Part shown: positions 4,839 to 39,411 of the stretch, piece after piece
How the letters are laid out: each line of letters opens with the position of its first letter
Position numbering within the stretch: position 1 is the stretch's first letter
Source: Candidatus Baltobacteraceae bacterium
Lineage (GTDB): Bacteria > Vulcanimicrobiota > Vulcanimicrobiia > Vulcanimicrobiales > Vulcanimicrobiaceae
Direction: 5' to 3'
DNA length: 64,000 bases
Assembly (NCBI GenBank): GCA_036559195.1
Contig: DATBTN010000039.1
Coordinates: 1-64,000, forward strand
Program-made: the position numbers and the translations under genes
Notes under the pieces: generated by a model
Told to the model about the DNA's origin: nothing
Databases searched by the model: none
What the model saw: only the letters and a program-made list of their open reading frames with translations

Positions 4839-4866
4839 CGGCGCCGATCGATAGAACCAGCGTTAT

Positions 4867-5023
4867 CATGGTGAGCCTGTCGAACCGGCGTTGTCATGGT
4901 GAGCTTGTCGAACCACGACAGGCTCCGTCCTTCGACAGGCTCCGTCCTTCGACAGGCTCAGGATGACAGGACGGTGTAACCGCGTGGCGAGCGGGGCGTT
5001 GTCATGGTGAGCCTGTCGAACCA
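4867..5023. repeat. Dispersed-repeat cluster between flgE and flbD
   Basis: The gap holds three copies of CATGGTGAGC[C/T]TGTCGAACC in one orientation and two adjoining copies of GTCCTTCGACAGGCTC in the other, the last ending AGGATGACAGGACGG. The opposing arms can pair into hairpins. It belongs to the same family as the elements at 13410, 34563, 37918, 54239 and 63207. It separates the hook block from flbD-motAB but carries no recognisable gene. Confidence 0.85.
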
Positions 5024-5075
5024 ACGACGATGGCGGTGTGGGACTTCGGGGGCGGGTCGATAATTTACTGAAGCT

Positions 5076-5261
5076 ATGATCGCTTTAACCCGGCTTAATG
5101 GCCAGTCCATCATGGTGAACTCGGATCTGATCGAATCGATCGAACCGACGCCCGATACGGTCGTGACGCTCACGAGCGGCAACAAGTTGATCGTGCGAGA
5201 CTCGCTCGATGACATCCAGGCCCGCATCATCGAGTTCAAACGGAAAATCTACGGGCCCTAG
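5076..5261 (+). CDS. flbD: Flagellar protein FlbD (SwrD family)
   Basis: A 61-residue protein of the FlbD/SwrD family: MIALTRLNG at the start, NSDLIESIEPTPDTVV in the middle and an ARIIEFKRKI tail. In Bacillus the homologue SwrD raises motor power by supporting stator function; that fits its place just ahead of motA and motB. It is about the family's normal length. The start is an ATG with a weak ribosome site (CTGAAG). A GTCGATAA at 5056-5063 resembles a sigma-28 -10 but has no matching -35. Confidence 0.9.
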   Translation: MIALTRLNGQSIMVNSDLIESIEPTPDTVVTLTSGNKLIVRDSLDDIQARIIEFKRKIYGP

Positions 5262-5290
5262 AGACAAGTGGGGCGGCACTCGCCCCCGCA

Positions 5291-5330
5291 GCCGCGGCTG
5301 CCCGCGGCGGGGCCCCGACGGGGGCTTTAA
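5291..5330 (+). terminator. Tandem hairpins with short T-run after flbD
   Basis: Two adjacent stems follow flbD: GCCGCGG/CCGCGGC (5291-5308) and GCCCC-GAC-GGGGC (5312-5325), the second followed by TTTAA. The T-run is short, so termination may be partial. It separates the hook block from motAB, which seems to have its own promoter. Confidence 0.5.
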
Positions 5331-5354
5331 TGTTGGTCCGGCCGCGGCCGATAC
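5327..5354 (+). promoter_or_regulatory. Sigma-28-like promoter for motAB
   Basis: TTAA, 16 nt, GCCGATAC: the same N16 layout as the sites before fliK, flhB and cheY. It begins at the end of the preceding terminator hairpin, a common arrangement. The leader to the motA TTG would be about 65 nt. Confidence 0.4.
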
Positions 5355-5427
5355 ATGTTAGGTGGGTGCCCGGACTACGTATACACCTGTCCTATAGCCC
5401 TCCGAAGTACCGCGGAGAAGCAACCTC

Positions 5428-6258
5428 TTGGATTTAGCGACCGTCCTCGGCCTCCTTATAGCTTTTGGGGCCATTATACTTGCCGGCTGGGTCGGTGGAA
5501 CCGATCCGCACGTCGTGTTCGGGCGTTGGGAAGCGCTCGTCTTGATCATTGGCGGAACGATCGGCGCAACGCTCACATCGTTTCCGATGCGCACCTTTCT
5601 CAAGGGCTTTTTGGGCGGCTTTAAAGTCGCGTTCACCGAGCCGGTCTACCACGAGCGCGATATCATCGCGACGCTCGTTTCGTTTGCCGAAAAGGCCCGC
5701 CGCGAAGGTTTGCTGGCGCTGGAAAACGAGGCCGCGGCACTCGAAGACGAGTTCATGCGCAAGGGCATCCAACTCGTGATCGACGGCCGCGACACCGACG
5801 TCATTCGCAAGGTCCTCGAAACCGAGGTCAGCCACGTTCAAGAGCGCGGCACGAAGGCGGAGGCGGTCTTTACGAATCTGGGCGGATACTCGCCCACACT
5901 CGGCATCATCGGTACCGTGCTCGGCCTCATCGGCATGCTGCGCGGCCTGGCTTCGGCCGCCGGCAGTTCCAACGTAGCGGGCTCGATCGGCGTCGCCACC
6001 GCCCAAGCTTTCGTCGCGACGTTCTTCGGCATTCTCTTCGCCAATCTGCTGTGGCTGCCGATCGCCACCAAGATCAAAGAGCGTTACGGGCAACTGCTGC
6101 TGGTGCGCGAGATCATGATCGAGGGCATTCTCTCGATTCAGTCCGGCGATAACCCGCGACTGCTCGAAGAGCGCTTGCACGCGTTCCTGGATCCCGCCGA
6201 GCGCGAGACCGAGATCGAAGAAGGCGGCGCCGTGGTCGAACCGAGCTACTCCACATAA
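5428..6258 (+). CDS. motA: Flagellar motor stator protein MotA
   Basis: MotA forms the proton (or sodium) channel of the stator with MotB and pushes on FliG. The 276 residues contain two N-terminal membrane helices (about 4-22 and 35-52), the cytoplasmic loop with RREGLLALE (about 91-99, the charged pair that contacts the rotor), and two C-terminal helices starting at YSPTLGIIG, with the conserved Pro156, and at the AFVATFFGILFANLL segment. The start is TTG, chosen because GGAGAAG stands 7 nt upstream. The stop overlaps the motB start by one base (TAATG), giving coupled translation of the stator pair. Confidence 0.95.
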   Translation: MDLATVLGLLIAFGAIILAGWVGGTDPHVVFGRWEALVLIIGGTIGATLTSFPMRTFLKGFLGGFKVAFTEPVYHERDIIATLVSFAEKARREGLLALENEAAALEDEFMRKGIQLVIDGRDTDVIRKVLETEVSHVQERGTKAEAVFTNLGGYSPTLGIIGTVLGLIGMLRGLASAAGSSNVAGSIGVATAQAFVATFFGILFANLLWLPIATKIKERYGQLLLVREIMIEGILSIQSGDNPRLLEERLHAFLDPAERETEIEEGGAVVEPSYST

Positions 6259-7034: not shown

Positions 7035-8033
7035 ATGTCGAGTCTCTCGCAAGAAGAAATCGATGCGCTGATCAACCAGCTCTCGCAAGAGCCGGCCGAA
7101 AAAGCCGAGGTAGTCGAGCAGAAGAAGATCAAAACGTTCGACTTCCGCTTTAACAAGCGCCTAGACAAGTTCTCGAACAATCAACTGATGACGCTGCGTA
7201 CGCTGCACGAGAACTTTACGCGGCTGCTGAACAATTCGCTCTCGGTCTATCTGCGCACGCGCGTCGAAGCGACGATCGTTTCGATCGAGCAGATCAGTTA
7301 CGGAGACTTCATCGCCTCGATCGGGATTCCGTCGATCCTCTCGATCTATTCGATGGATCCGTTGCCCGGCAGCGGTATCGTTCAAGTCGATTTGAACCTC
7401 GTCTTCTCGATCATCGACCGGCTTCTAGGCGGTCCGGGTTGGTTTCCGCAAAAACTTCGCGATCTCACCGATATCGAGCGCACGCTCATGCAGCGCTTCA
7501 TGGCCCGCATGCTCAACAGCTACCGCGAGTCGTGGAACTATCTGCTGACGCTCTCGCTGAAGATCGAAGCGCTCGATTCCAATCCGCAATTCATTCCGCG
7601 CATCATCCCGCTCGATCAGATCGTGGCGTACGTTTCGTGCGAACTCAAGGTCGGGGACATGGCCGGGATCATGAACTTCTGCCTCCCGTATCCGGTGCTG
7701 CAATCGATCGGCGGCCAATTGACGGACTTTCAATGGTCGCCGTCGCTGACCGCCGGCCGCGCCGTGACGGAAGAAGATATTGCCCAATTGGCGCGTAACG
7801 TCGAGCGAGCCGGGGTCGAACTCGAGGTCGAGCTCGGCAAGACGACGGTCTCGCTGCGTGATTTGGTGGCGCTCGCGCCTGGGGACGTGATCTTATTCGA
7901 TAAGCCCACGGACCAGCCGCTCGTCGCTAAAGTCAACGATCGCGAGAAGTTTCAAGTGTTTCCCGGCGTGAACAGGGATCGAATCACCGTTCAAGTCGCC
8001 GGTTTCATTGCGAACGAGGACGGAAGAGTTTAA
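7035..8033 (+). CDS. fliM: Flagellar motor switch protein FliM
   Basis: FliM is the middle part of the C-ring; its N-terminal peptide binds phosphorylated CheY. The peptide LSQEEIDALINQL is at residues 4-16, followed by the CheC-like middle domain (from FDFRFNKRLDKFS, including GSGIVQVDLNLVFSIIDRLLGG) and a C-terminal SpoA domain with LGKTTVSLRDLVALAPGDVI. The 332-residue length is standard. The stop overlaps the fliY start (TAATG). Confidence 0.95.
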   Translation: MSSLSQEEIDALINQLSQEPAEKAEVVEQKKIKTFDFRFNKRLDKFSNNQLMTLRTLHENFTRLLNNSLSVYLRTRVEATIVSIEQISYGDFIASIGIPSILSIYSMDPLPGSGIVQVDLNLVFSIIDRLLGGPGWFPQKLRDLTDIERTLMQRFMARMLNSYRESWNYLLTLSLKIEALDSNPQFIPRIIPLDQIVAYVSCELKVGDMAGIMNFCLPYPVLQSIGGQLTDFQWSPSLTAGRAVTEEDIAQLARNVERAGVELEVELGKTTVSLRDLVALAPGDVILFDKPTDQPLVAKVNDREKFQVFPGVNRDRITVQVAGFIANEDGRV

Positions 8034-8875
8034 TGCCGGATATTCAACAACTCGCCGATTCGATGCTGGCCGCAGCCGGTACGGTTCTCGGACGGCTCGT
8101 CGACGAGCCCATCGGTGCGTCGGGCACGAACCGCAACGATCACGAGGGCTCGATTCGAATGGAAGAAGGCCACCTCGTAACGGTGGCCGGCGTGCCGTCG
8201 CTCGGCGCGCAACTCGTCGTGCGTTTCGGGTCGGCCGATCTCGCGCGGGTCGTCGCCTTGATGCTCGGCGGGGCCGATGAGGGCGGCGAGCTCGGAGCGA
8301 TGCAGCTTTCGATCGTCTCCGAGACCGTCTCGCAGATCGCGGCCGCCATGGCCGAGCAACTCGCAAAGGAACTGGGCGCGAGCGCGGACGGCATTCACGC
8401 CGAGCTCTGCAACGACGCGACGAACGTACCGCCGCCGCCGTTTGAATCCTACGAAGGCACGATCCAAGTTGGCGAGATCGCGGCGCACGTCGCGATCGAC
8501 TTCGACGGGATCGCCGTGTCGAAAATCGCACCGCCGGCGGCGAAGGGGCCGCCCAAGCGCGAGGCCCCAAACGCGCAGGCCGTGACGTTCACGCCGATGA
8601 CGCCGACGCCGTCGCGCGCGGCGCAGCCCGGCCGAGCAAATCTGGACCTCGTCCACGACGTGCCGCTGCAGATCAGCGCCGTTCTCGGCCGAACCGGTTT
8701 GACGTTGCGCGATGTCGTGGCGCTCGCACCCGGAAGCGTTTTCGAACTCGACAAACTCTCGACGGACCCGATCGACCTGTACGTCAATAACATCTTGATC
8801 GCGCGCGGCGAAGTGGTCGTCGTGGACGACAAGTTCGCGGTAAAGATTAGCGAACTCAACCCGAACGTCGGGTAG
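8033..8875 (+). CDS. fliY: Flagellar switch protein FliY/FliN
   Basis: This C-ring protein has two parts: a CheC-like N-terminal half (about 1-150, containing ARVVALMLGG and ETVSQIAAAMAEQL) and, after a Pro/Ala linker, a FliN-type SpoA domain (about 200-280, with VLGRTGLTLRDVVALAPGSV and NNILIARGEVVVVDD). The fusion and the 280-residue length mark it as FliY rather than the short enteric FliN. I do not see an intact DxxxExxN phosphatase motif in its CheC-like half, so CheY-P removal may rest on the separate CheC. Coupled to fliM by a one-base overlap. Confidence 0.88.
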   Translation: MPDIQQLADSMLAAAGTVLGRLVDEPIGASGTNRNDHEGSIRMEEGHLVTVAGVPSLGAQLVVRFGSADLARVVALMLGGADEGGELGAMQLSIVSETVSQIAAAMAEQLAKELGASADGIHAELCNDATNVPPPPFESYEGTIQVGEIAAHVAIDFDGIAVSKIAPPAAKGPPKREAPNAQAVTFTPMTPTPSRAAQPGRANLDLVHDVPLQISAVLGRTGLTLRDVVALAPGSVFELDKLSTDPIDLYVNNILIARGEVVVVDDKFAVKISELNPNVG

Positions 8876-24257: not shown

Positions 24258-26372
24258 ATGCGTTGGATTCTCACGGCTCTGCTCGCAATCGTCACGACCG
24301 GGGCGGCGTCGGCCGCGGCCCTCGAATCCGCCACGCCGGCGGCGATCGCCGTTCCAAGGGTAGCGAGCGCGCCTCCCACGATCGCGGATATTTCCGATCC
24401 GGCTTGGCAAAAGGCGGCGCATGTAACGATGGATTGGGATCTGCTCGCACACGGACGCGCGCGGGAAGCTACCACGGCCTACGTTTGCAGCGACGGGACC
24501 TTTCTGTATGTCGCCTTCGATGCGCGCCAGAGCGAGAGCGTCGTCGCAACCCAGCACACGAATAACGCCGGTTACGGCGCCGACGACGACGTCCAAATCG
24601 TGCTCTGGCCCGGCGGCGCAAATGGATTTCAATACCAATTCGTCGCCAATCCAATCGGCACGCACTATCAGTTCTCGTCGGAGAACACGGCCTACGAGCC
24701 GAAATGGACCTCGGTTGCAAAAATCGTTCCCGGCGGGTACGTGGTCGTCATGCGAATTCCGATGGACGTGATGCGCGGAACGTCCGGGGCCGGAGTGTGG
24801 AAAGTTCAATTCGCGCGAGCGGTGGAGTCGACGGGCAACACGTTCGTGTACGCGTACGACACGAATGCCACGAGCCCGACCGACGTGCGCTACGCCGGTT
24901 CGCTGACCGGTTTGCGCACCGTTGCCGTACGCCCGCAATCGCGCGTTGCCGTCTACGGTTTGGGCACGATCGCAGGCTCCTCCATCGGAGGCTCGACCTC
25001 GCGTGCCGGTCTCGATCTCTCGATCCCGATAACGGCGACGTCCTCTTTTTACGCCACGATTCATCCGGACTATTCGAACGTGGAGCGCGACCAGCAATCG
25101 ATCTCGCCCACGGCCTTCCGGCGTTCGTTTAGCGAAATACGCCCGTTCTTTACGCAAGGCCAATCGTCGTATAATAACTTCGATTGCGACGCCTGCAGCG
25201 GCTACACCACCACGCTGTATACGCCGGGCATTCCCACGCCTCGCGACGGATACGCGATAGAAGGCAAGCAGGGCGAATATGGATTCGGCGCCTTCGATGC
25301 CGTTGGAGTGGGACGCAGCGACTCCGCGCAGGCGTTGCGATACACGAACGGGGCGCATACCATCTTCGGCTCGGTTCAACGCATCGCCGTAAACATGCCG
25401 GGCTTCCACGACGACGCGCTCGAGGGTGGGCTCAGCGTTGGCGACGGCAAGCATCTCAGCGCCTATTTTAATTACGCAGTCGACTCGGGAACGAACGTCC
25501 TTCACCCGGAGCGCGCCAAATACTACGACGGCGGCGGAGGATGGGCTAACCAGACGACGGCCATCTTCGGCTCGTTGCGCAAAATCGGGTCCGAGTTTAA
25601 CCCGTACGACGGATTCGTCTCGCACGGCGATATCGCGGGGTATGCGGCCTACTATAGTCACGCCGTCCTGTTTGCGCCGGGCCGGCCTTTGCGCAGCGTG
25701 ACGTGGTCGGGTTTCGTGGACCGCTACCACGGCACCGGCGTCGGCCTCAACCAAACCGATCAGAACTACACCTTCGATCTGCTGACGCGGGGACTGATCG
25801 ACGTCAGCTTGAGCGCCGGTTCGAGTTTCTTACGAATGAATAACGGCGTCTTTTCACCGGTTTCGCAGAACGGGGTCTCCGTGACGTTCGGCAGCGGCGC
25901 CTCCAATGCAAGCGTCAACAACGGCGCGCAGCACGGGCAAGGCGCGACGCCAACCACGGTCGCGTTCTATACGGGCCGATTCGGACCGGGGAGCCTGAAC
26001 TCGTCATCGCTGGCTTCGACGATTCGCGCCGGAAAACGCGGACTTGTTAGCGGCGAGCTCGACGACAATCGGCAATTCCTCGATCGCGGCGGACGGTTCG
26101 AACAATGGCTGGAGCGCGTTGCCTATACGTATCAGGCCGGCCCCGACGAATCGTTCGCCCTCGGCGTTCGGCGCATCATCGGAACGCCGCCGGAGCTTGA
26201 GATCGACCAAGTACCGTCGTTTCAAAGCGGCTGGAACCTCTCGGCGGCGTTCCACCGAATCGTGGGTCCCAACGAACTCTACGCCGTCTACGGCGATGCG
26301 AGCGCGTTCGCAACGTCGCCGCAATTCATCGTCAAATGGATCCATTATTTCGGTGCGGGGAAGGGCACGTAG
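24258..26372 (+). CDS. DUF5916-like protein: CBM9-type domain plus outer-membrane barrel
   Basis: A 704-residue exported protein starting 2 bp after the pentapeptide gene. After a signal peptide (about 1-21) comes a CBM9/carbohydrate-binding-like domain (about 35-225; PTIADISDPAWQKAA, TFLYVAFDARQSE, GADDDVQIVLWPGG, YVVVMRIPMDVM). The rest is alternating-strand sequence typical of the DUF5916 barrel, with FYATIHPDYSNVERDQQ and FSEIRPFFTQGQ, ending in an aromatic IVKWIHYF-like strand. DUF5916 proteins are thought to be outer-membrane proteins of unknown substrate. This suggests the cell has an outer membrane. An earlier in-frame start at 24096 would overlap the previous gene and is rejected. 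Confidence 0.8.
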   Translation: MRWILTALLAIVTTGAASAAALESATPAAIAVPRVASAPPTIADISDPAWQKAAHVTMDWDLLAHGRAREATTAYVCSDGTFLYVAFDARQSESVVATQHTNNAGYGADDDVQIVLWPGGANGFQYQFVANPIGTHYQFSSENTAYEPKWTSVAKIVPGGYVVVMRIPMDVMRGTSGAGVWKVQFARAVESTGNTFVYAYDTNATSPTDVRYAGSLTGLRTVAVRPQSRVAVYGLGTIAGSSIGGSTSRAGLDLSIPITATSSFYATIHPDYSNVERDQQSISPTAFRRSFSEIRPFFTQGQSSYNNFDCDACSGYTTTLYTPGIPTPRDGYAIEGKQGEYGFGAFDAVGVGRSDSAQALRYTNGAHTIFGSVQRIAVNMPGFHDDALEGGLSVGDGKHLSAYFNYAVDSGTNVLHPERAKYYDGGGGWANQTTAIFGSLRKIGSEFNPYDGFVSHGDIAGYAAYYSHAVLFAPGRPLRSVTWSGFVDRYHGTGVGLNQTDQNYTFDLLTRGLIDVSLSAGSSFLRMNNGVFSPVSQNGVSVTFGSGASNASVNNGAQHGQGATPTTVAFYTGRFGPGSLNSSSLASTIRAGKRGLVSGELDDNRQFLDRGGRFEQWLERVAYTYQAGPDESFALGVRRIIGTPPELEIDQVPSFQSGWNLSAAFHRIVGPNELYAVYGDASAFATSPQFIVKWIHYFGAGKGT

Positions 26373-26419
26373 AGCAAGGCGAGCAGGCCAGCGTCCACGT
26401 TCGGAGTAAGGTGACCGGC

Positions 26420-27268
26420 ATGCTCAGTGTCTACGTCGCCGCGCTCGTACTCGGCGCGCTCTCCCCTGCTGCGGCGGCGCCGCACCCGGCGCCCACCTCG
26501 ACGCCGTTAAAAACTATCGCGCACACGATCTCGACGCCGTTCTGCAGCGCGTTTCGCCGGAATATCGCGCCCGCCATCGGGCACGTGCTCGATAACGATC
26601 GCATCATTGCCGCGAGTAAGCCGGCATTCGTGCAGTTTGCCAAAGATCACGCGGCCGCGCTGCACAACGGTTCCCAGGCCGCCGAAGACCTCGACGTCCT
26701 GCAGCTGGAGAATATGGTCGGACCGATGGTGCAGAACGTACAGCAGACCGAATCGCTGCTCGGCAGCAACGCCGCCTTTCCCGTCCGCCCGTTAACGAAG
26801 GACGACCGGCAAATCGTAACGCTGCGTTCGCAGCTGCTCGGCGTATTGCAAGAGCAAAAAGGCGTGCTCGATTTGATTTCGGGCTTGGTCGATACGCAGC
26901 AACTCGGAGAATTGCAGGCGGCCGGGCACGAGTACGACAAGGCGCTCAGCCCCGACGTACGCACGTCCAGTGGCGGCGCGAACTCGCACAACGCGCCGTC
27001 CGATTCGCCGACGACGGCGCCGGATTCGCTCGTCAACGCGGGCCTGCCGAGCAAGAACCCCGGCGGACTTCCCGACGTGAGTAAGCTCAACACCGACTCG
27101 GCGCTCGCCAACAATCCGATCTTCGCTTTTCCGCGTCAGGTCGGAACCTACCAGCAGCGCATCTCGGCCCGCGAGGACGTTACCGCGACCGGCGTTCGCA
27201 ATGCGATTCCGCTCTGCGGCGGTCACAACGCGGGCGCGCCCGCGCCCTCACCGTCGCCGCAGCCGTAA
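26420..27268 (+). CDS. Secreted protein of unknown function
   Basis: A 282-residue protein with a signal peptide (about 1-21), an Ala-rich helical core (about 40-190; for instance KTIAHTISTPFCSAFRRNI and QLENMVGPMVQNVQQTESLL), then a low-complexity Ser/Asn/Pro segment and a Pro-rich tail. The core resembles a helical bundle; I recognise no family. Two Cys residues, one in the core and one near the end, could pair. TAAGGTGA precedes the ATG, and the gene follows the DUF5916-like gene by 47 bp, so it probably closes the blaI operon. Its last 46 bp overlap the convergent hyuB. Confidence 0.7.
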   Translation: MLSVYVAALVLGALSPAAAAPHPAPTSTPLKTIAHTISTPFCSAFRRNIAPAIGHVLDNDRIIAASKPAFVQFAKDHAAALHNGSQAAEDLDVLQLENMVGPMVQNVQQTESLLGSNAAFPVRPLTKDDRQIVTLRSQLLGVLQEQKGVLDLISGLVDTQQLGELQAAGHEYDKALSPDVRTSSGGANSHNAPSDSPTTAPDSLVNAGLPSKNPGGLPDVSKLNTDSALANNPIFAFPRQVGTYQQRISAREDVTATGVRNAIPLCGGHNAGAPAPSPSPQP

Positions 27269-28836
27269 CCGCCGCCGCCCGGCGTTGCGATAACGAGCGT
27301 ATCTCCCGGCACGAGATCGAGCGTCGTCTTTGCCGGCAGCACCGTCGTTCGCGCGTCGCGTACGAGTGCGTGCCGTCCGGTTGCGCCGGCGCCGCCGCCG
27401 CGGGCGCCCGACGGCGCGACGGCATGCCGTTCGGCGAGCAGCGACACCCGCGCGCTGCCGTCGGTGAGTTCGAGCGCCCGAATCAACCCGTCGCCGCCGC
27501 GAAATCGCCCCGCGCCGCCGGTACCGTCGGCGAATTCGTAGCGCGTGACGCGTAGCGGAAACTCCCGCTCGATCGCTTCGATCGGCGTGTTGAGCGTATT
27601 GGTCATGTGGCATTGTATGCCGGAGAGGCCGTCGCTCGTGGGGCGCGCGCCCATACCGCAGCCGTTGGTTTCGTAAAACGCCCAGCTTTCGCCCGAGGCC
27701 CGCACGCCGCCGATCATCACGTTGCTCATCGTACCGCCGCTCGGAGCCGGCACGCGATCGGGCGCGGCAAGCGCCAGCGCCGCGAGCACGACGTCGGCGT
27801 TGCGCGTGCTGGTCTCGACGTTGCCGCCGGAGACGGGCGCGGGGCGGCGCGGATTGAGCAGCGTACCGACGGGCACGTCCACGGTCACCGGACGAAAGCA
27901 GCCGTCGTTCATCGGAATACTCGGATCGGTGACCGCGCGCAGCGCGTAATAGACGCCCGAAAGGGTGACGCCGTAGACCGCGTTCATTGGAAAGGCGACC
28001 TGCTGCGCCGTTCCAGCATAATCGAAGTGCGCGCTGCCGTCGCGAAGCGTCAAACGCAGGGCGATGCGGATCGACGGCCGGCCCGCGCGATCCTCGAGGA
28101 CGTCGCTGCTTTCGAAGACGCCGTCGCCGAGCGCGCGCAAGGCGTTGCGCATGCGGCGTTCGCTTTCGTTGAGGATCCGCTCCAGCGCCGCTTCGACGAC
28201 GGGCTCGCCGTAGCGGGCGTAGAGTTCGAGGAGCCGCCGCTCGCCCGTGTGGTTGCCGGCGAGCTGCGCGCGGAGGTCGCCGCTGCGCGCGTGCGGCGTA
28301 CGCGAGTTGGCTCGAAAAATGGCGATCGTTGAAGTCACGACGCGATCGTCGCGCACGAGGCGAATCGGCGGCACGATCAAGCCTTCGGCGAAGAGTTCGG
28401 GCGCATCGGCCGACATCGAACCGGGTACCATGCCGCCGACGTCGGTATGATGCGCTTTGTTGGCCGCATAGCCGACGAGCGTCGAGTTGAAATAGATCGG
28501 GCGAATGACGGTGACGTCGTTGAGATGGGTGCCCGAGAGATACGGATCGTTGACGACCCACATCTCGCCTTCGCGTACGCCGCCGTCCTGCGCCTCGATT
28601 GCATCGAGCGTCGCGCGCAATCCCCACGGCAGCGATCCCAGGTGCACCGGAATATGCTCGGCTTGTGCGATCAGCCGGCCGCGCCGATCGAAGAGCGCGC
28701 ACGAATGGTCGAGCCGTTCCTTGATGTTCGCCGAATACGCGCTATTGCGAACCGCGATGCCCATCTCTTCGCTTGCGTAGATAAGCGAACTCTTGATCAC
28801 TTCGCTCACGATCGGGTCGACGGCACCGACCTTCAT
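27223..28836 (-). CDS. hyuB: Hydantoinase/oxoprolinase subunit B (HyuB)
   Basis: The B subunit works with HyuA in ATP-dependent opening of hydantoin or 5-oxoproline rings, or in related acetone/acetophenone carboxylases. The 537-residue sequence has the hydantoinase_B blocks: DPIVSEVIKSSLIYASEEMG, SANIKERLDHSCALFD, AEHIPVHLGSLPWGL, VVNDPYLSGTHLNDVTV, GYAANKAHHTDVGG, MSADAPELFAEGL and, near the end, FRGGDGLIRALEL and IATPGGGGYG. The exact substrate cannot be read from the sequence. The ATG overlaps the stop of the CHAD gene by 4 bp, so the intervening CHAD genes are translated as part of this operon. Confidence 0.9.
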   Translation of the reverse strand: MKVGAVDPIVSEVIKSSLIYASEEMGIAVRNSAYSANIKERLDHSCALFDRRGRLIAQAEHIPVHLGSLPWGLRATLDAIEAQDGGVREGEMWVVNDPYLSGTHLNDVTVIRPIYFNSTLVGYAANKAHHTDVGGMVPGSMSADAPELFAEGLIVPPIRLVRDDRVVTSTIAIFRANSRTPHARSGDLRAQLAGNHTGERRLLELYARYGEPVVEAALERILNESERRMRNALRALGDGVFESSDVLEDRAGRPSIRIALRLTLRDGSAHFDYAGTAQQVAFPMNAVYGVTLSGVYYALRAVTDPSIPMNDGCFRPVTVDVPVGTLLNPRRPAPVSGGNVETSTRNADVVLAALALAAPDRVPAPSGGTMSNVMIGGVRASGESWAFYETNGCGMGARPTSDGLSGIQCHMTNTLNTPIEAIEREFPLRVTRYEFADGTGGAGRFRGGDGLIRALELTDGSARVSLLAERHAVAPSGARGGGAGATGRHALVRDARTTVLPAKTTLDLVPGDTLVIATPGGGGYGCGDGEGAGAPAL

Positions 28837-29273
28837 GCGACGGGTTTTCCGAAGCCGGTAAAAGCGATCAGCCCGCTAAAGGGACCGGCTTCGACGAACG
28901 CGTCGATCCAGAGCGCGCGCGCTCGCAGCAGATGTTTCTCACGGTCGGCGGCGATTCGCGCCAGCAACGAGCCGCCGTCCGCGCGCGCGAGTTCGATCAG
29001 CAGCGCGCAATCGTGTACGTCGCCGAGGGCCCCGACCAACTGCGCGAGGCGCTCGGTCGCGGCGCCAAGTTCCGGCCGATTCCGGTGGCCGCTCTCGAGC
29101 AGATAGCGCAAGCGCTTTCCGGCCAACCGCAGCGCGTGCAGGCGAGCGTCGTCGTTCTGCGATGCGAGGTCGCGCGCGCTCTCGAGCATTTCGGCAAACC
29201 GCACGCCGAGCGAGCGCCGCAGGGCGTCGATGGCCGGGTCCGCCGGCTCGATCCGCAATTGACGCGGCGTCAT
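28833..29273 (-). CDS. CHAD-domain protein, C-terminal half
   Basis: A 146-residue helical protein that corresponds to the second helical bundle of a CHAD domain: LRRSLGVRFAEMLESARD, then the family's basic helix LHALRLAGKRLRYLLES, and LAQLVGALGDVHDCALLIEL. CHAD domains bind polyphosphate through conserved His, Arg and Lys residues; known proteins have both bundles in one chain of about 280 residues. Here it is a separate gene whose ATG overlaps the stop of the first half by 4 bp (ATGA), so the two are probably translated in equal amounts and pair. An earlier start would read through unrelated sequence. Confidence 0.75.
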   Translation of the reverse strand: MTPRQLRIEPADPAIDALRRSLGVRFAEMLESARDLASQNDDARLHALRLAGKRLRYLLESGHRNRPELGAATERLAQLVGALGDVHDCALLIELARADGGSLLARIAADREKHLLRARALWIDAFVEAGPFSGLIAFTGFGKPVA

Positions 29274-29665
29274 TGCGAGACCCGTAAGAACGCATCGAGA
29301 CGGTTCTCCGCTTTGCGTTTGCGGCGCGCGACGGCGCTGCGAAGGCGTTCGATCGCCTCGCGCTCTTCGAGCGTGGAGGCCGCCCGATAAGCGCGCAACC
29401 GCTGCAGATGCACGTCTGCATCGCGCACCTTTCCCAGCCATTTGCGCAAGGCTCGAACGCGCGGCGCGAGGGCGGGTTCCTCGTCCACGCAAGCCGGGAA
29501 GTCCTCCAAGATCGCGAGCAGCCGTGCCGCGGCCTTGCGGGCGCGGTGAACGCGTTTTGCCGACGGCTTCTTTTCGAAGCGTCGCAGCGCGCGCTCCATG
29601 TGCGCGCGCGCCCGCTCGCAGGCATCGACCGCCCAATCGCCGATCGTTCCGGCCGTCTCGTTCAC
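29270..29665 (-). CDS. CHAD-domain protein, N-terminal half
   Basis: A 131-residue basic helical protein matching the first bundle of a CHAD domain: ERALRRFEKKPSAKRVHRAR with the typical K-R-V-H-R-A-R helix, RLLAILEDFPACVDEEP, and LRKWLGKVRDADVHLQRLRA. The GTG start overlaps the hyuA stop (GTGA) and the stop overlaps the next ATG, so it is coupled on both sides. A CHAD pair inside a hyuA-hyuB operon is not something I know from described systems; a role in binding phosphate or polyphosphate near an ATP-using enzyme is speculation. Confidence 0.75.
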   Translation of the reverse strand: MNETAGTIGDWAVDACERARAHMERALRRFEKKPSAKRVHRARKAAARLLAILEDFPACVDEEPALAPRVRALRKWLGKVRDADVHLQRLRAYRAASTLEEREAIERLRSAVARRKRKAENRLDAFLRVSQ

Positions 29666-31737
29666 AACGCACGCTCCAGGGTGAGAATATCCCCGTCCTG
29701 CGCGCGCCAACCCGGCGGGACGTAGGCGCAGGTGTCGTATTGCTCGACGAGCGCCGGCCCGTCGATCGCCGGCGGAAGATGCTCGCGCGTGTAGACCGGC
29801 GTCGGCCGAAAAGCGCCGTCGATAAACACGTCGCGCGTGGCCGGCGCGGGCGCGGGAGTTGCGGCGGCACGCGTTCGATCGGCGCGCGGAGCACGAGCCA
29901 GGTTGCCGATTGCCGTAAGCCGCGCGTTGACCAGCTCCACCGCTTCGTCGCGGACCGCGTATCCATACCGGCGTTCGTGCTTGCGGTGAAAGCTCTCGGC
30001 GATCGCATCGATCGAATCGCCGTGTTCGATATCGAGCTCGAAGCTCTGTCCGCGATAGCGCATGTCGTATTCGCGCACGAAACCGATGGCGGCGTCGTCG
30101 ACACCCTGCTCGCGCAGCGCTTGGCGGCCTTCCTCTTCCAGACCGGCGAAGAGCGCTTGCAATTCGTCGCAATCGAACGCGGAGAGTTCGCGTAAGACCG
30201 GCCGCACGAAACTGGCGCGCATTTCGGCGACGAGCAACCCGTAGGCGGAGAAGACGCCGGGATGGCGCGGGACGAGCACGCGTGCGATGCCGAGCTCCTC
30301 CGCGAGCGCGCAGGCGTGCAGCGGACCGTTGCCGCCGAACGCGATCATGGCGAACTCGCGCGGATCGAGTCCCCGTTCGACCGTGACGATGCGCAGCACT
30401 TTGGCCATCTCGCTATCGACGAGCGTAAGAATGCCGCTCGCGGCCGCCTCCACCGAGAGCTGCAGCGCTTGCGCGAGCGTCGCAACCGCGTCGCGCGAAC
30501 GGCGCGCGTCGATCGGAAACGTCCCGCCGACCAGGTGCGTTTGATTCAAACGCCCGAGCACGACGTTGGCATCGGTGACCGTCGCGCGATCGGAGCGTCC
30601 GTAACAGGCGGGACCGGGGTCGGCGCCGGCCGAGAGCGGCCCGACGCGTAGCGATCCGCCGTCGTCGATCCACGCGACCGTGCCGCCGCCCGCGCTAATC
30701 TCGGCGAGATCGACGAACGGAAAACGCACGGGATAGCCGCTGCCCTTGATCGAGCGTCCGGAGTGCGTGGAGCCCGCCGCCTCGAATTCGCCGACGACTT
30801 GCACCGCGCCGTCGGCGATCGTGCCGGCCTTTGCGGTTGTGCCGCCCATATCGAACGAGAGCACTTTCTCGAGGGCTAATTGACGCGCGGTTTCGGCCGC
30901 GGCGATGACGCCCGAGGCCGGCCCGCTCTCGATGATCGTTGCCGGCCGCGCCGCGGCGCGTTGCGCGGTCGCCATGCCGCCGTTGCTTTGCATGACGTAG
31001 AGCGGCGCGGTGATGCCGTCGTCGTGCAACGCCCGAACCAACCGCTCGATGTACCGGCGGACGATCGGCAAGAGCGCGGCGTTAACGACGGTCGTGGAGA
31101 AGCGCTCGTACTCGCGATACTCCGGATCGATCTCCGCGGAAGACGTAATCGGTATGCCGGGCAGCGCGCGAGCGATCGCTCGCGCGAGGCGCCGTTCGTG
31201 CGCGTCGTTTGCGTAAGCGTGGAGCAGCCCGATCGCGACGGCATCGACGTTACGAGCGCGCAGTTCGGCGATCGCGCGCTCGATCTCGGCATCTTCGAGC
31301 GCGACGAGCACGTTGCCGGAAAAGTCCATGCGCTCGCGCACGCCGATGCGATCCGCACGCGCGACCAGCGGCTTGGGGCGCGTCACGAACAGATTGTAGA
31401 CTTCGCTGCGATTCTGCCGCCCGATCTCGATGACGTCGCGAAACCCCTCGGTGGTGACGAACGCCACCCGCGGCAACTCGAGATGCATCTGCCCGAGCAG
31501 CGCGTTGGTTGCGATCGTCGTCGAATGGGAGAGCCATTCGATATGCGGGGCCGTTGCATACCGTGCCCGCAGTTCGCGCATAGCTTCAAGCACGCCGCGC
31601 TCCGGTGCCTGAGGCGTGGAAGCAACTTTGAGCGCGACGATCTCGCCGCTAGCCGTATCGACGGCGACGAGGTCCGTAAACGTCCCCCCGACGTCGATCC
31701 CAACGCGAAGTCTCGTGGCCGTTGGCAAAATGGGCAC
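29662..31737 (-). CDS. hyuA: Hydantoinase/oxoprolinase subunit A (HyuA)
   Basis: The A subunit carries the actin-like ATPase of the hydantoinase/oxoprolinase family. The 691 residues show the N-terminal phosphate-binding LRVGIDVGGTFTDLVAVD, HSTTIATNALL, EGFRDVIEIGRQNR, the central VLSFDMGGTTAKAG, GPLSAGADPGPACYG, and IAFGGNGPLHACALAEELG. The start is GTG at 31737; a TTG three codons on is possible. It leads a minus-strand operon (hyuA, two CHAD halves, hyuB) and diverges from the SOS-controlled imuA across about 145 bp. Confidence 0.92.
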   Translation of the reverse strand: MPILPTATRLRVGIDVGGTFTDLVAVDTASGEIVALKVASTPQAPERGVLEAMRELRARYATAPHIEWLSHSTTIATNALLGQMHLELPRVAFVTTEGFRDVIEIGRQNRSEVYNLFVTRPKPLVARADRIGVRERMDFSGNVLVALEDAEIERAIAELRARNVDAVAIGLLHAYANDAHERRLARAIARALPGIPITSSAEIDPEYREYERFSTTVVNAALLPIVRRYIERLVRALHDDGITAPLYVMQSNGGMATAQRAAARPATIIESGPASGVIAAAETARQLALEKVLSFDMGGTTAKAGTIADGAVQVVGEFEAAGSTHSGRSIKGSGYPVRFPFVDLAEISAGGGTVAWIDDGGSLRVGPLSAGADPGPACYGRSDRATVTDANVVLGRLNQTHLVGGTFPIDARRSRDAVATLAQALQLSVEAAASGILTLVDSEMAKVLRIVTVERGLDPREFAMIAFGGNGPLHACALAEELGIARVLVPRHPGVFSAYGLLVAEMRASFVRPVLRELSAFDCDELQALFAGLEEEGRQALREQGVDDAAIGFVREYDMRYRGQSFELDIEHGDSIDAIAESFHRKHERRYGYAVRDEAVELVNARLTAIGNLARAPRADRTRAAATPAPAPATRDVFIDGAFRPTPVYTREHLPPAIDGPALVEQYDTCAYVPPGWRAQDGDILTLERAL

Positions 31738-31882: not shown

Positions 31883-32629
31883 ATGCTTGCGGCGATAGAA
31901 CCCGATCCCCGGCGAACAGCCTTCCAGGCCCTTAAGGCCGGAATGGATTTGGGGAGCGCGCGCGCCATCGTTCAGCCTGGAGAACGCCTGCTTTCGACCG
32001 GCTTTCCGGAGCTGGACCGGGCCCTAGGCGGCGGTTTTCCACGCGGGGCGATCGGGACGCTCGAAGGGGGCCTCAGCTCCGGCCGCACGGCTATTGCCGC
32101 CGGCTTGTTGGCGGTCGCCACCAGCCGGGGATTGGCGGCGGTGGTCGACGATGGCTCGCTGTATCCGCCCACGCTGGCAGCGGCCGGAGTGCGGCTGGAC
32201 CGGCTGCTGGTGGTGGCTGCTGCCACGACCCTGGGCATCGCCCGGGCGGCCGATATTCTCTTACGGTCGCGGGCCTTCGAAGTGATCGTCGCGCCGGGCG
32301 CCGCGCTCAAGGCAACGGTGTGGTCGCGGTTGGCGGGACTCGCGCAGAAAGCCGATGCGCTGTTGGTCACACTAGGGCCGGAGGCGCGTTCCGAACTTGG
32401 ATACTTTGCGAGCGCTCGCGTGGGATGCGCGATCGAACGCGTGCTCTGGTGTAACGAATCGGGACCTTTCTGCGAACTCGCCGGCTACGATATCTCGGCG
32501 CGCGTACTTAAACATCGCCGTGCGGCACCCGGCGCGATCGCCCGCCTGCGCGTTCTCTCAAACGGAAGCGGCGCAGTCGTACGCGAGCGCCTCGTCGGGA
32601 ACCGCCGGCTCACTGCTGTGGCCTATTAG
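31883..32629 (+). CDS. imuA: ImuA-like RecA-fold mutasome protein
   Basis: ImuA-type proteins are RecA-related partners of ImuB and DnaE2 in damage-induced mutagenesis. The 248-residue protein has a RecA-like core: FPELDRALGGGFPRGAIGTL, a P-loop-like EGGLSSGRTA (61-70) in which the usual Lys is Arg, and later strands (VVDDGSLYPPTL, ILLRSRAFEVIVAPG). With an altered P-loop, ATP hydrolysis may be weak or absent. The gene follows an exact LexA box, lacks a visible ribosome site and is probably read from a leaderless mRNA. imuB starts 12 bp after it. Confidence 0.85.
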   Translation: MLAAIEPDPRRTAFQALKAGMDLGSARAIVQPGERLLSTGFPELDRALGGGFPRGAIGTLEGGLSSGRTAIAAGLLAVATSRGLAAVVDDGSLYPPTLAAAGVRLDRLLVVAAATTLGIARAADILLRSRAFEVIVAPGAALKATVWSRLAGLAQKADALLVTLGPEARSELGYFASARVGCAIERVLWCNESGPFCELAGYDISARVLKHRRAAPGAIARLRVLSNGSGAVVRERLVGNRRLTAVAY

Positions 32630-32641
32630 GAACGTCTTTTT

Positions 32642-34078
32642 ATGCTCTGCGTCTACGTTCCCAACTACGCACTCGCCGTTGCGCGCCGCGATCGCCCCGA
32701 TCTCGGCGACGTTGCGGCACTGCTGGCCGATAAACCCGATCGCGGACGCGTTCTCGCGCTCGACGAACGCGCCGCGGCATGCGGGGCGCGCGTCGGACAG
32801 ACGGTCGTGCAGGCGCGCGCCTCGGCTAACGACGCGTGCGTGCTGGTACACGATCCGATTCGCTCGCATCTGGTTTGGAGCGACATGCTCGACGCGCTCG
32901 ATGCGGTTTCGCCGCTGGTCGACGACACGGCCGAAGGGCTCGCCTATCTCGAGATGCGCGGCATCGACGGCGCTCCATCCGATTGGATCGCGCGCGCGCA
33001 TACGGTGCTGCGCGATTTCGATCTGCCGCTGCGCGTAGCGATCGCACCGAATAAGTTTCTCGCGCACGCGGCGGCCAGCGTGGCCGACGGATACGTTTGC
33101 GGGCGAGAAGACGTGCGCGCGCTGCTCGAGCCGCTGCCGGTCGAACTGCTCGATCTCGACCCGAAGACGATCGAACGCTTGGGGCTGCTGGGCGTGCGCG
33201 CGCTCGGCGACCTCGCGCGCCTACCGCATGGTCCGCTCGTCCGTCGCTTCGGAAAGAGCGCGGCCACGTGGCACGCGCGAGCCAACGGAAACGACCCGAC
33301 GCCGCTCTTGCCGCGCGCGCACGAGATACAGATCGATGCAGCGATGTACGGCGAAGGCACGGCCGATCGCGAAGAACAGCTCTACTTTGCCTTGCGTATG
33401 TTGACCGACCGCGTCTGTTCGGATCTCGCGCGGATGGGTAAAGGTGCGGCGATGGTCCAGGTGAGTTTCGAATGTGAGAGCGGCGATAACCGCCGCATGG
33501 AGGTCGGGCTGGCTCAAGCGACGGCCGATTCGCGCATGATGCTCGATGTCGTACGCGCGAAACTCGAGGGGCAAGCGTTCGAGTCGCCGGTCGTGGGCTT
33601 GCGAGTAGCGGTCATGCGCTTGGAAGAGCTCGGCACCCCCGCCACGCTCTTCGCGCAACGCGAACCGGATCCGCAGGCGATCGCACTGGCGCTCGCACGT
33701 CTGGAGAACGCGCTCGGTGCGAGCGGAACGCGAATGCGCGCGCAAGCGGCCCACTGTTTCGAGCAGCGATTCACCGCCGAAGCCTTTGCCGTTGGTGCGG
33801 GTGAGGCGCCCACAACTGCGAATGCGGCGCATCCGGTGCCGCAGTTGCGGTTGCTCGCGGTGCGCGAGATCGACGTCGTCATACGGGCCAACGAGCCGGT
33901 GCTCGTTGGATCGCCCCCACGAGCCGTGACCGATTGTGCGGGGCCCTGGCGCATCGACGAAGGCTGGTTCGATGGCCCGGTCGTCCGCGACGAATACGAC
34001 GTATTATTAGAAGACGGTCAACTGTATCGCATCTATCGCCAAGGCGAACGCTGGTATCTTCGAGGAGCCTATGATTGA
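32642..34078 (+). CDS. imuB: ImuB Y-family polymerase-like mutasome protein
   Basis: ImuB is an inactive Y-family polymerase that tethers DnaE2 to the sliding clamp. The 478-residue sequence begins CVYVPNYALAVARR, where active polymerases have the DxDAFF metal site, and has DDTAEGLAYLEM where they have the second acidic motif, so the catalytic carboxylates appear lost. Helix-hairpin-helix text (LGLLGVRALGDLARLP) and the little finger follow, and the end LYRIYRQGERWYLRGAYD is the typical ImuB C-terminus. The ATG of the GIY-YIG-like gene lies 8 bp inside its 3' end. Confidence 0.9.
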   Translation: MLCVYVPNYALAVARRDRPDLGDVAALLADKPDRGRVLALDERAAACGARVGQTVVQARASANDACVLVHDPIRSHLVWSDMLDALDAVSPLVDDTAEGLAYLEMRGIDGAPSDWIARAHTVLRDFDLPLRVAIAPNKFLAHAAASVADGYVCGREDVRALLEPLPVELLDLDPKTIERLGLLGVRALGDLARLPHGPLVRRFGKSAATWHARANGNDPTPLLPRAHEIQIDAAMYGEGTADREEQLYFALRMLTDRVCSDLARMGKGAAMVQVSFECESGDNRRMEVGLAQATADSRMMLDVVRAKLEGQAFESPVVGLRVAVMRLEELGTPATLFAQREPDPQAIALALARLENALGASGTRMRAQAAHCFEQRFTAEAFAVGAGEAPTTANAAHPVPQLRLLAVREIDVVIRANEPVLVGSPPRAVTDCAGPWRIDEGWFDGPVVRDEYDVLLEDGQLYRIYRQGERWYLRGAYD

Positions 34079-36282: not shown

Positions 36283-39200
36283 ATGGATGGTTATGCGGAG
36301 CTGCACTGCTGGTCGAATTTCACGTTTCTCGAGGGTGGGTCGCACCCCGAGGAGCTGGTGGATCGTGCGGTCGAGCTGGGCCTCAAGAGCCTCGCTATAA
36401 CCGATCGGGACGGCTTCTATGGGGCGGTCCGCTTCGCCAAACATGCCAAGCTGCGAGGGCTGCCGGCGATCCTCGGCAGCGAACTGACCTTTGAAGACGG
36501 CGCCCGGATCGTGCTGCTGGTCGAGAACGAGCGCGGGTATGCGAATCTGTGCGAACTGATCTCGGTCGCGCAGATGCGGGGCAGCAAGGGCGATGCGCGC
36601 TTGCAGCTGGGCGATCTGGACGAACGCAGCGACGGGCTCGTCGCGCTCTCGGGCGGTGCGAACGGACGGATCGAGCGCGCGTTGCGAACCTGCGATCGCG
36701 AGCGAGCCGTGCGCGAAGCCGATGCGCTGCACGAACGATTCGGCGATCGGTTCTATCTCGAACTCCAACAGCATCTGCACGCCGAAGACGCGCGTCTGTG
36801 TAATGCATTGCTCGATCTCTCGCGGGAGCGATCGCTTCCGTGCGTGGTTACCAACGGCGTCGCTTACGCGCGTAAAGAGGACGCGCAACTCGCCGACATC
36901 CTCGCATGCATCAAGCTGAAGACGAACCTCGGCCAGGCTCGTAGCGATGCGCTGCTGCGCGCCAATGCGGAGTATCACTTAAAAGACGCGAGGATGATGC
37001 GGCGGCTCTTCAAGCCTTACCCGTACGCCCTTCGCAATACGTTGAACGTGGCCGAGCGGTGCGGGTTCCGGCTCGACCGTTTGCTCGGGCAGTTCCCGCT
37101 CTTTCCGGTACCGGAAGGTTACACGCGTCAAACCTATCTGCGCGAACTGGTAGCGCGAGGTGCGGCCGAACGGTACGGCATGCCGCTGAGCAGCGCGGTC
37201 GAACGGCAGTTGGAATACGAACTCGGCATCATCGCCAAGATGGATCTTGCCGGATACTTTCTCATCGTTTGGGATATCGTGCGCGCGGCCAACGAACTGC
37301 GCGTACTCTGCCAGGGCCGCGGGTCGGCAGCGAATTCCGCGGTCTGCTACGCGCTCGGGATCACCGCCGTCGATCCGGTCGGCATGGATCTGCTCTTCGA
37401 GCGCTTCATGTCCGAAGAGCGTCAAGAGATTCCCGACATCGACATCGACTTCGCGCATCAAGACCGCGAGAAGGTCATTCAATATATCTACGATCGATAC
37501 GGGCGCAGTAACGCCGCGATGGCGGCCGAGGTCATCAGTTATCGCACGCGTTCGGCGATTCGCGATGTGGGCAAAGCGATCGGTCTTACGCTCGCCCAAG
37601 TGGACGCCGTCGCGCGCGAATACGACGCACGTGAATCGCTCGCCGATTCGATGGGCGGCGGCGAGACCGGCGAGCGGCTTTTGACGTTTTGCCGGCGCAT
37701 CGACGGGTTTCCGCGGCATATGGGGATTCACTCCGGCGGCATGGTGATCACGCGCGATCCACTCGTGCGCGTGGCGCCGGTGGAGTGGGCGACGATGCGC
37801 GACCGCACGATCGTGCAATGGGATAAGGACGACCTGCAAGACCTCGGACTTATCAAGATCGATCTGTTGGGTTTGGGCATGCTCTCGCTGTTGCGGGAAG
37901 CGTTTGCCATTCACGCAGTCCTTCGACCGTTCGACGAGCTCAGGGCAGGCTTAGCTCAGGATGACAAAGGGGGATTGGGTTTGCATAGTATTCCGGCGGG
38001 GGATCCGGCGACGTATGAGATGATGCAGCGGGCGGATACGATCGGGGTGTTTCAGATCGAATCGCGCGCGCAGCAGTCGATGCTGCCGAAGATGAAGCCG
38101 ACGTGTTTTTACGATATCGTCATGCAGGTTGCGATCATTCGGCCCGGGCCGATTCAAGGGCAGATGATCCATCCGTTTTTGCGGCGGCGCGCCGGACTCG
38201 AGCCGGTGACCTATCCGCATCCCAAACTCAAACCGATTCTCGAACGAACGCTCGGCGTACCGCTCTTTCAAGAACAAGGAATGCGCATGGCGATCGAAGC
38301 GGGCGGGTTTTCGCCGGGGCAAGCCGATCAATTGCGCCGCGCGATGGGGCATAAGCGCTCGCACGAACGCATGCAGGAGATTTATCCGCGGCTCGTCGAG
38401 GGTATGGTGAGCAACGGCATCGATCGCGACGCCGCGGATAAACTCTTTAAGATGCTCGAGGGCTTTGCCGATTACGGATTTCCGGAATCGCACGCCGCCA
38501 GTTTCGCGCTCTTGGCCTACGCGTCGGCATACGTAAAGTGCCACTACCCGGCGATCTTTGCGGCGGCGATCCTCAACGTGCAGCCGATGGGGTTTTACTC
38601 AACCGAAGTGCTGGTCAACGACGCGCGCCGTCACGGCGTCGCGATTAAACCCGTCGCCGTAAACGCGAGCGAGTACTGGAGCCGCGTCGATAGCGACGGT
38701 GCGTTGCGATTGGGGTTCCACGTGATACGGGGGCTCGGCGAAGCGCAGAAAGAGCGGTTAGAAGCGGCGCTCGCGCAGGGACCGTTCGAAGATATTCGTG
38801 CCTTCGCGCAGCGAACGCAACTGGAAAAAGAGGCGCTCGAAAATCTGGCGGCGGCCGGCGCCTTTGCGCCTTGGTTTGCCGCGCGGCGCGATGCGATGTG
38901 GGCGCTGCGCGGGCTCGACGAGCGCGAGACGCGCGGCGAACTGGGGCGCATCATGGATGTCGACGAACCGCAAGCGCGTTTCAAAACGCTCTCGAAACAG
39001 GAAGAGTCGGCGTTCGATCTGTGGTCGACGGGCATCGCGCCGACGGAGCAGCCGATCGTGCATTTCCGGCCGTTTTTGGAGCGCGAACGAGTGCTGCAAG
39101 CCGCGCAGCTCGCCGCCCAGCCGAACAATCTCATCTGTCGCGTCGGCGGCATGGTGATAACGCGCCAGCGTCCCGGAACCGCGAAGGGGTTCGTCTTCTT

Positions 39201-39411
39201 GACGCTCGAGGACGAAACGGGGCTCGTCAACGTCATCGTGCGGCCCGACGTTTACGAACGCAACCGCCGAACGATCCGCCAATCGTCGACGCTGATTATC
39301 GAAGGCAAGCTGCAGAAGGACGGCGCCGGCATCGACGTGCTCGCGCGCAAGTTCTGGGCCTTCGAAAGCGACGGCATCGTCGATGGCGTGCGTGCCCGGA
39401 ACTTTCACTAG
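36283..39411 (+). CDS. dnaE2: Error-prone DNA polymerase DnaE2
   Basis: DnaE2 is the C-family polymerase of the ImuA-ImuB mutasome. The 1042 residues contain a PHP domain (1-210; YAELHCWSNFTFLEGGSHPE), the palm with catalytic PDIDIDF (D385, D387, D389), the fingers with GVFQIESRAQQSMLPKMKP, helix-hairpin-helix and a C-terminal OB fold (about 935-1010; VGGMVITRQRPGTAKGFVFL). Residues about 546-566 (HAVLRPFDELRAGLAQDDKG) come from a dispersed repeat inserted in frame between LLREAF and LHSIPAGDPATYEMM. The reading frame is intact, so the enzyme is probably made. The C-terminal tau-binding part of replicative DnaE is absent, as expected for DnaE2. Confidence 0.95.
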   Translation: MDGYAELHCWSNFTFLEGGSHPEELVDRAVELGLKSLAITDRDGFYGAVRFAKHAKLRGLPAILGSELTFEDGARIVLLVENERGYANLCELISVAQMRGSKGDARLQLGDLDERSDGLVALSGGANGRIERALRTCDRERAVREADALHERFGDRFYLELQQHLHAEDARLCNALLDLSRERSLPCVVTNGVAYARKEDAQLADILACIKLKTNLGQARSDALLRANAEYHLKDARMMRRLFKPYPYALRNTLNVAERCGFRLDRLLGQFPLFPVPEGYTRQTYLRELVARGAAERYGMPLSSAVERQLEYELGIIAKMDLAGYFLIVWDIVRAANELRVLCQGRGSAANSAVCYALGITAVDPVGMDLLFERFMSEERQEIPDIDIDFAHQDREKVIQYIYDRYGRSNAAMAAEVISYRTRSAIRDVGKAIGLTLAQVDAVAREYDARESLADSMGGGETGERLLTFCRRIDGFPRHMGIHSGGMVITRDPLVRVAPVEWATMRDRTIVQWDKDDLQDLGLIKIDLLGLGMLSLLREAFAIHAVLRPFDELRAGLAQDDKGGLGLHSIPAGDPATYEMMQRADTIGVFQIESRAQQSMLPKMKPTCFYDIVMQVAIIRPGPIQGQMIHPFLRRRAGLEPVTYPHPKLKPILERTLGVPLFQEQGMRMAIEAGGFSPGQADQLRRAMGHKRSHERMQEIYPRLVEGMVSNGIDRDAADKLFKMLEGFADYGFPESHAASFALLAYASAYVKCHYPAIFAAAILNVQPMGFYSTEVLVNDARRHGVAIKPVAVNASEYWSRVDSDGALRLGFHVIRGLGEAQKERLEAALAQGPFEDIRAFAQRTQLEKEALENLAAAGAFAPWFAARRDAMWALRGLDERETRGELGRIMDVDEPQARFKTLSKQEESAFDLWSTGIAPTEQPIVHFRPFLERERVLQAAQLAAQPNNLICRVGGMVITRQRPGTAKGFVFLTLEDETGLVNVIVRPDVYERNRRTIRQSSTLIIEGKLQKDGAGIDVLARKFWAFESDGIVDGVRARNFH
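37918..37966 (+). repeat. Dispersed repeat inserted in frame within dnaE2
   Basis: Contains AGTCCTTCGAC, GTTCGACGAGCTCAGGGCAG and GCTTAGCTCAGGATGACA, matching the intergenic elements. The inserted length keeps the dnaE2 frame and adds about 20 residues between two conserved blocks. Confidence 0.85.

Follow-up and report, generated by a model that had tools for sequence, protein, structure and literature searches.

The window analysed here, the whole 64,000-nucleotide stretch at positions 1 to 64,000 of contig DATBTN010000039.1, comes from the draft assembly (2.48 Mb, 80 contigs) of a Candidatus Baltobacteraceae bacterium, and the nearest records of its HyuB protein belong to the phylum Eremiobacterota. 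Four genes follow one another on the minus strand, in the order hyuA, CHAD-N, CHAD-C and hyuB, and in the window sequence each joins the next by a 4-bp overlap, three in succession (Table 1). Pfam and the sequence bear out exactly the gene families, coordinates, strand and overlaps given by the first-pass annotation of this DNA. That annotation also spoke of two CHAD genes inside a hyuA–hyuB operon; the position and the overlaps hold, but what the two open reading frames (ORFs) encode is one CHAD domain, not two CHADs. Beyond the operon, F14, which has no match in Pfam or NCBIfam, occupies the same place beside imuA–imuB in some 18 genomes, and an imuA-like match occurs in 88 of the 103 genomes surveyed below.

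Table 1. Genes and overlaps at the hyu locus and its surroundings (positions in the window)
Feature	Position	Strand	Description
F14	26336..27268	+	310 aa; convergent with hyuB; one edge of the variable site
hyuB	27223..28836	-	ATG start, 537 aa; PF02538, E 3e-191
CHAD-C/hyuB overlap	28833-28836		ATGA
CHAD-C	28833..29273	-	ATG start, 146 aa; PF05235 profile positions 141-227, E 4.5e-11
CHAD-N/CHAD-C overlap	29270-29273		ATGA
CHAD-N	29270..29665	-	GTG start, 131 aa; PF05235 profile positions 5-116, E 1e-11
hyuA/CHAD-N overlap	29662-29665		GTGA; CHAD-N GTG start within the hyuA stop overlap
hyuA	29662..31737	-	GTG start, 691 aa; PF05378, PF01968, PF19278
imuA-like	31883..32629	+	NF033429 ImuA, E 3.2e-15, below cut-off; other edge of the variable site
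imuB-like Y-family polymerase	32642..34078	+	Y-family DNA polymerase profiles, below cut-offs; adjoins imuA in relatives
dnaE2, error-prone DNA polymerase	36283..39411	+	NF004225, above cut-off

HyuA retains intact the ATP motifs defined for such proteins in PMC8453981—DVGGTFTD, DMGGT and GADPGP—and these, together with the domains of HyuA and HyuB, place the two in the ATP-dependent hydantoinase/oxoprolinase family. Judged in this way, HyuAB is an ordinary ATP-dependent hydrolase whose putative substrates are lactams or hydantoins: HyuA would phosphorylate, and HyuB would open a lactam- or hydantoin-like ring, after the model of caprolactamase, CapAB (PMC8453981). The window proteins are ordinary members of the family to which CapAB (6YRA) belongs, with the difference that both score far below the CapA and CapB equivalog cut-offs. 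The solved structure of CapAB is a plain alpha2beta2 tetramer (PMC8453981), and no CHAD partner has been described in this family. Related carboxylases of the same superfamily do possess small extra subunits, gamma in acetone carboxylase and epsilon in acetophenone carboxylase (PMC8453981); the extra genes of the window are CHAD halves, to judge by Pfam and by fold.

The CHAD profile, PF05235, has 228 positions, and CHAD-N and CHAD-C divide it between them without overlap, scoring 45.7 and 43.6 bits against a Pfam cut-off of 25.6. They are thus the N- and C-terminal halves of a single domain, and the division of the profile rules out two independent CHAD domains. The genome has no CHAD besides this pair. 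The cut falls between the two bundles of the fold, and profiles of the two halves match each other reciprocally. In its AlphaFold2 model (pLDDT 94.7) CHAD-N forms a helical bundle on its own, of four long helices, and its best matches in the PDB are CHAD structures (probability 1.00, TM ~0.72 over the half, with a weak E of 0.05). CHAD-C matches the C-terminal half of the Chlorobium CHAD structure 6qv7 in phmmer (E 0.001) and, by this likeness, is the predicted C-terminal four-helix bundle of the domain that CHAD-N begins. The net charges of the halves are +13 for CHAD-N and only +2 for CHAD-C.

One relative, G102, has the two halves joined in a single ORF between hyuA and hyuB. Its model (pLDDT 92.1, pTM 0.89) contains two bundles, with its weakest stretch a low-confidence linker at residues ~120–145, where the split would fall, and it resembles the solved CHADs 6qv5, 6qva, 3e0s and 6rn5 (Z 20.1–22.1) and ygiF (14.0) more than the best unrelated chain (11.2). 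As modelled, the single-ORF version is a complete CHAD. The two-bundle, pseudo-twofold CHAD fold is therefore recovered from the CHAD-N model, the G102 model and the reciprocal matches of the halves together. By its family matches, the two-bundle fold of its joined form and its contact residues, the window pair resembles the known CHAD proteins, or phosins, of Chlorobium (CtCHAD, 6qva), Ricinus (6qv5) and Escherichia coli (ygiF). The solved examples, however, hold both bundles in one polypeptide—a property of those examples rather than of the Pfam definition—whereas the bundles of the window pair are the products of separate genes. A literature search found no description of split CHADs.

In CtCHAD, mutation of His253, Arg256, Arg260, Arg296 or Arg418/Tyr419 weakened polyphosphate binding (PMC6537752). 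We located the equivalents of these residues by motif and position in 44 N halves and 44 C halves. All 44 N halves have the equivalents of His253, Arg256 and Arg296, and among the C halves Arg418 has its equivalent in 42 of 44 and Tyr419 in 43 of 44. The position of Arg260 varies: it is Arg in 36 of the 44 N halves and Ala in eight, and the window has Ala. Because the known contacts lie on both halves, polyphosphate binding would need both proteins. The genome contains genes for PPK1 and Ppx, which probably equip the cell to synthesise polyphosphate and to break it down.

Relatives were surveyed in 103 genomes of one order of the Eremiobacterota, soil bacteria, the assemblies mostly metagenome-assembled drafts and several of them incomplete; 69 have a CHAD match. 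Both halves occur together at 44 loci. At 40 they are two adjacent ORFs, always N followed by C, so that 39 split pairs are known besides that of the window, in several different neighbourhoods; at four they form one ORF, which belongs to the two-half family in G006, G078 and G102 and is an ordinary full-length CHAD in G008. A start that would give the 4-bp overlap is possible at the second gene in about half of the split pairs, and in the others there is an overlap of 8 or 20 nt or a separation of at most 26 nt. CHAD-N and CHAD-C are closely spaced in all neighbourhoods, and many pairs that are not part of a hyu operon are coupled just as tightly; the spacing is therefore a property of the pair and not of hyuAB. 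The sole possible exception to paired halves is G077 (L091), in which only a truncated fragment of a single half was found, near a contig end. In G006, the single-ORF CHAD of g7 (L035 9706–10137) adjoins a TnpB/Cas12f-like fragment (PF07282), a possible clue to movement of the gene.

Of the 67 genomes of the order that have hyuB, 7 have the pair inserted between hyuA and hyuB, and these are spread over five genera: the window, G020, G090 and G091 (g21), G026 (g27), G034 (g35) and G102 (g26). The survey of hyu operons for CHAD genes suggested by the first-pass annotation thus finds that the insertion recurs, and it is not the accident of one genome. The same annotation had proposed a CHAD subunit for the hydantoinase/oxoprolinase family, and had named absence of the CHAD genes from the operons of relatives as what would tell against it; with 7 of 67, such absence is largely what we see, and the proposal is not supported. 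Pair and hyuB occur in the same genome in 33 cases and are together in only those seven. Ten genomes have the pair without hyuB, and 11 have hyuB without any CHAD, figures in which single absences are soft since some genomes are incomplete. CHAD does not always accompany HyuAB, nor HyuAB always CHAD, as would be expected of an obligate subunit.

Comparisons at the site between F14 and imuA are independent of genome completeness, and there the locus is found in four states. It is empty in G095, G096 and G036; holds the CHAD pair only in G030, G060, G033 and G092; holds hyuAB only in G025, G098, G099 and G100, and in G028, where the contig breaks before imuA; and holds hyuA–CHAD–CHAD–hyuB in the window, G020, G090 and G102, and in G091 and G026, where the contig stops short on one side. 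Each part therefore stands alone at the very site that elsewhere holds both. Where only the pair occupies this site, the genome has no close hyuB anywhere; in G025, which has hyuAB at the site, the CHAD pair is on a different contig. The hyuB orthologues of most family members are ~64–80% identical, and in most relatives without CHAD there the gap between hyuA and hyuB is -5 to +23 nt.

By eye, other genes were seen between hyuA and hyuB: a peptidase-M20-like gene on the opposite strand in G008 (L101 ~3430–5040) and a Rieske-type oxygenase in G019 (L110 ~3760–5670). The hyuA–hyuB junction is one that tolerates inserts. In G102, hyuA (L058 5392–7503) is broken into two frames, with a short direct repeat (ATACCTCAGGATGACA, present twice) at the break, which may reflect decay or assembly error; the one-ORF CHAD (7508–8338) and hyuB downstream remain open. 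Outside the order, we found no CHAD in the hyuAB operons of 43 loci chosen by likeness to the window HyuB, from archaea, Bipolaricaulota, Alphaproteobacteria and others (among L133–L153). Beyond the phylum, the HyuB proteins closest to that of the window (L133–L143) come mostly from thermophilic archaea, Thermoproteota, at 48–53% identity, a hint that hyuAB has passed between archaea and Eremiobacterota.

Away from hyuAB, the pair occupies several unrelated neighbourhoods across the order. Seven genomes of one CHAD branch have it beside phosphate genes, with an exopolyphosphatase-type ppx on one side, G021 excepted. On contigs that extend far enough, the other flank carries pstSCAB together with genes for a PhoB/YycF-type response regulator and a PhoR-like histidine kinase. 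In g38 the pair comes after genes that encode a RecG-like helicase and a HAD hydrolase, and in g36 and g10 its neighbours, where examined, are unrelated to phosphate. The phosphate-linked pairs are real but sit on a different CHAD branch from that of the window, which disposes of a direct link between the window pair and a phosphate regulon; it is thus to homology and conserved residues that we look for its polyphosphate binding.

The history of pair and operon can be read in part from their trees. The CHADs of hyu operons form one clade with CHADs now located elsewhere in g5, g26 and g7 (bootstrap 100); when full-length CHADs are added, the deepest member of this hyu clade, G034, is poorly supported (43). 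Pairs found without hyuAB at the F14–imuA site group instead with those of g10 and g36 (bootstrap 99). In the HyuAB phylogeny the operons with CHAD do not form a single clade; their distribution takes 3 changes, where shuffled labels take 6.6. At the F14–imuA site, the presence of CHAD takes at least 6 changes and that of hyuAB takes 1. The most economical account is that pair and operon were associated early and that one or the other was then lost or moved repeatedly; three independent insertions at one and the same junction are less likely. The split itself has a history, too. With full-length CHADs included, the phosphate-linked pairs group with them, and a full-length gene beside ppx (L025, in G016, C102) nests among the split pairs, because of which fission, to judge from the tree, may have happened twice, or have been reversed by re-fusion.

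Successive 4-bp overlaps had been thought to imply stoichiometric production. In the window and 20 relative loci, all DNA of the family, 62 of 172 pairs of adjacent genes that share a strand and lie within 70 nt (~36%) have a usable start at -4, and with this base rate three in a row are weak evidence for stoichiometry. The four genes remain overlapping or no more than 4 nt apart in relatives with the same arrangement, apart from which their spacings drift: -14/-4/-26 in g21, -8/-4/-4 in G026 and -4/-4/+4 in G034. The spacings at the hyuA–CHAD and CHAD–hyuB junctions differ between genera.

How, then, is the arrangement best explained? We think it likely that the two genes encode a phosin-type, polyphosphate-binding CHAD in two parts, a putative heterodimer that is expressed from hyuAB as its host operon and is not a required part of HyuAB. 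CHAD-N and CHAD-C would each fold as a four-helix bundle, co-translated from their overlapping genes, and would associate without a covalent bond, restoring the pseudo-twofold CHAD fold and its basic cleft for polyphosphate; both the heterodimer and its binding of polyphosphate we infer. The pair would have entered the F14–imuA site, or have long shared it, and would use the hyuAB operon transcript. That it is not required for HyuAB follows from the occurrence of each without the other, even at that site. Streptomyces offers a precedent for CHAD genes in phosphate-related operons: its CHAD protein PptA (6rn5) is likewise produced from a host operon, ppk-pptA-nudix, from which pptA is missing in some species (PMC8003754). 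PptA differs in being one protein, from a ppk operon under phosphate control, whereas the host operon of the window is hyuAB and its CHAD genes are halves.

That the split is a sequencing frameshift, or a gene in decay, is hardly credible. The genome is a draft in 80 contigs and a single base change would fuse the frames, but the 40 split pairs extend over many genomes and genera, in most of them the second half has a proper start and in many the 4-bp overlap recurs, and the residues of the halves are conserved; an error as the origin of the split is ruled out by the pairs of the relatives. Nor does it seem at all probable that the pair is a CHAD that does not bind polyphosphate and serves in some other role, such as metal binding or as a scaffold. 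The Arg260 position is lost in the window, branches in the hyu clade are long and, in PMC10892726, a role in copper resistance is proposed as possible for other CHADs; yet the remaining contact positions are kept in essentially all pairs, and the solved CHADs have no conserved metal site (PMC6537752).

A closer bond with the enzyme deserves more attention, and we rate it unlikely rather than far-fetched: where the pair lies in the operon, it would be an accessory part of HyuAB that tethers the enzyme to polyphosphate granules, or through which polyphosphate regulates it. The tight, overlapping arrangement is kept in seven genomes of five genera, small extra subunits are known among the carboxylases of the superfamily (PMC8453981), and the insertion is clustered on the HyuAB tree, although shared descent alone would give the same clustering. 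Against this, close relatives have HyuAB at the same site without the pair and other genomes have the pair and no hyuAB, the solved CapAB is simply an alpha2beta2 enzyme (PMC8453981), CHAD-N and CHAD-C are just as tightly spaced in many pairs that belong to no hyu operon, and our literature search found no link between CHAD domains and hydantoinases. We think it improbable, too, that in the genera with the pair in the operon the split heterodimer docks on HyuAB and supplies it with two further subunits, optional and specific to the clade, with a tie to granules or a response to polyphosphate. Something may nevertheless keep the order hyuA–CHAD–CHAD–hyuB, since it persists in five genera despite wide divergence of the CHAD proteins. 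A functional tie between pair and enzyme is possible, then, but unnecessary to the reading we prefer, of a two-gene CHAD expressed from an operon that does not depend on it.

Since each part occurs without the other in relatives, the neighbourhood looks like a lodging rather than a four-part enzyme, and it carries a caution for annotation: a conserved, tight position in an operon, even one with 4-bp overlaps, is not proof of a subunit. The CHADs known so far are single chains in which two similar bundles are joined, and a large part of one order appears to make CHAD as two half-proteins, with joined forms in some relatives. Split and joined together, these proteins offer natural material on the question whether duplication and fusion gave rise to the CHAD fold, and the split ones offer material for building polyphosphate binders from two halves.
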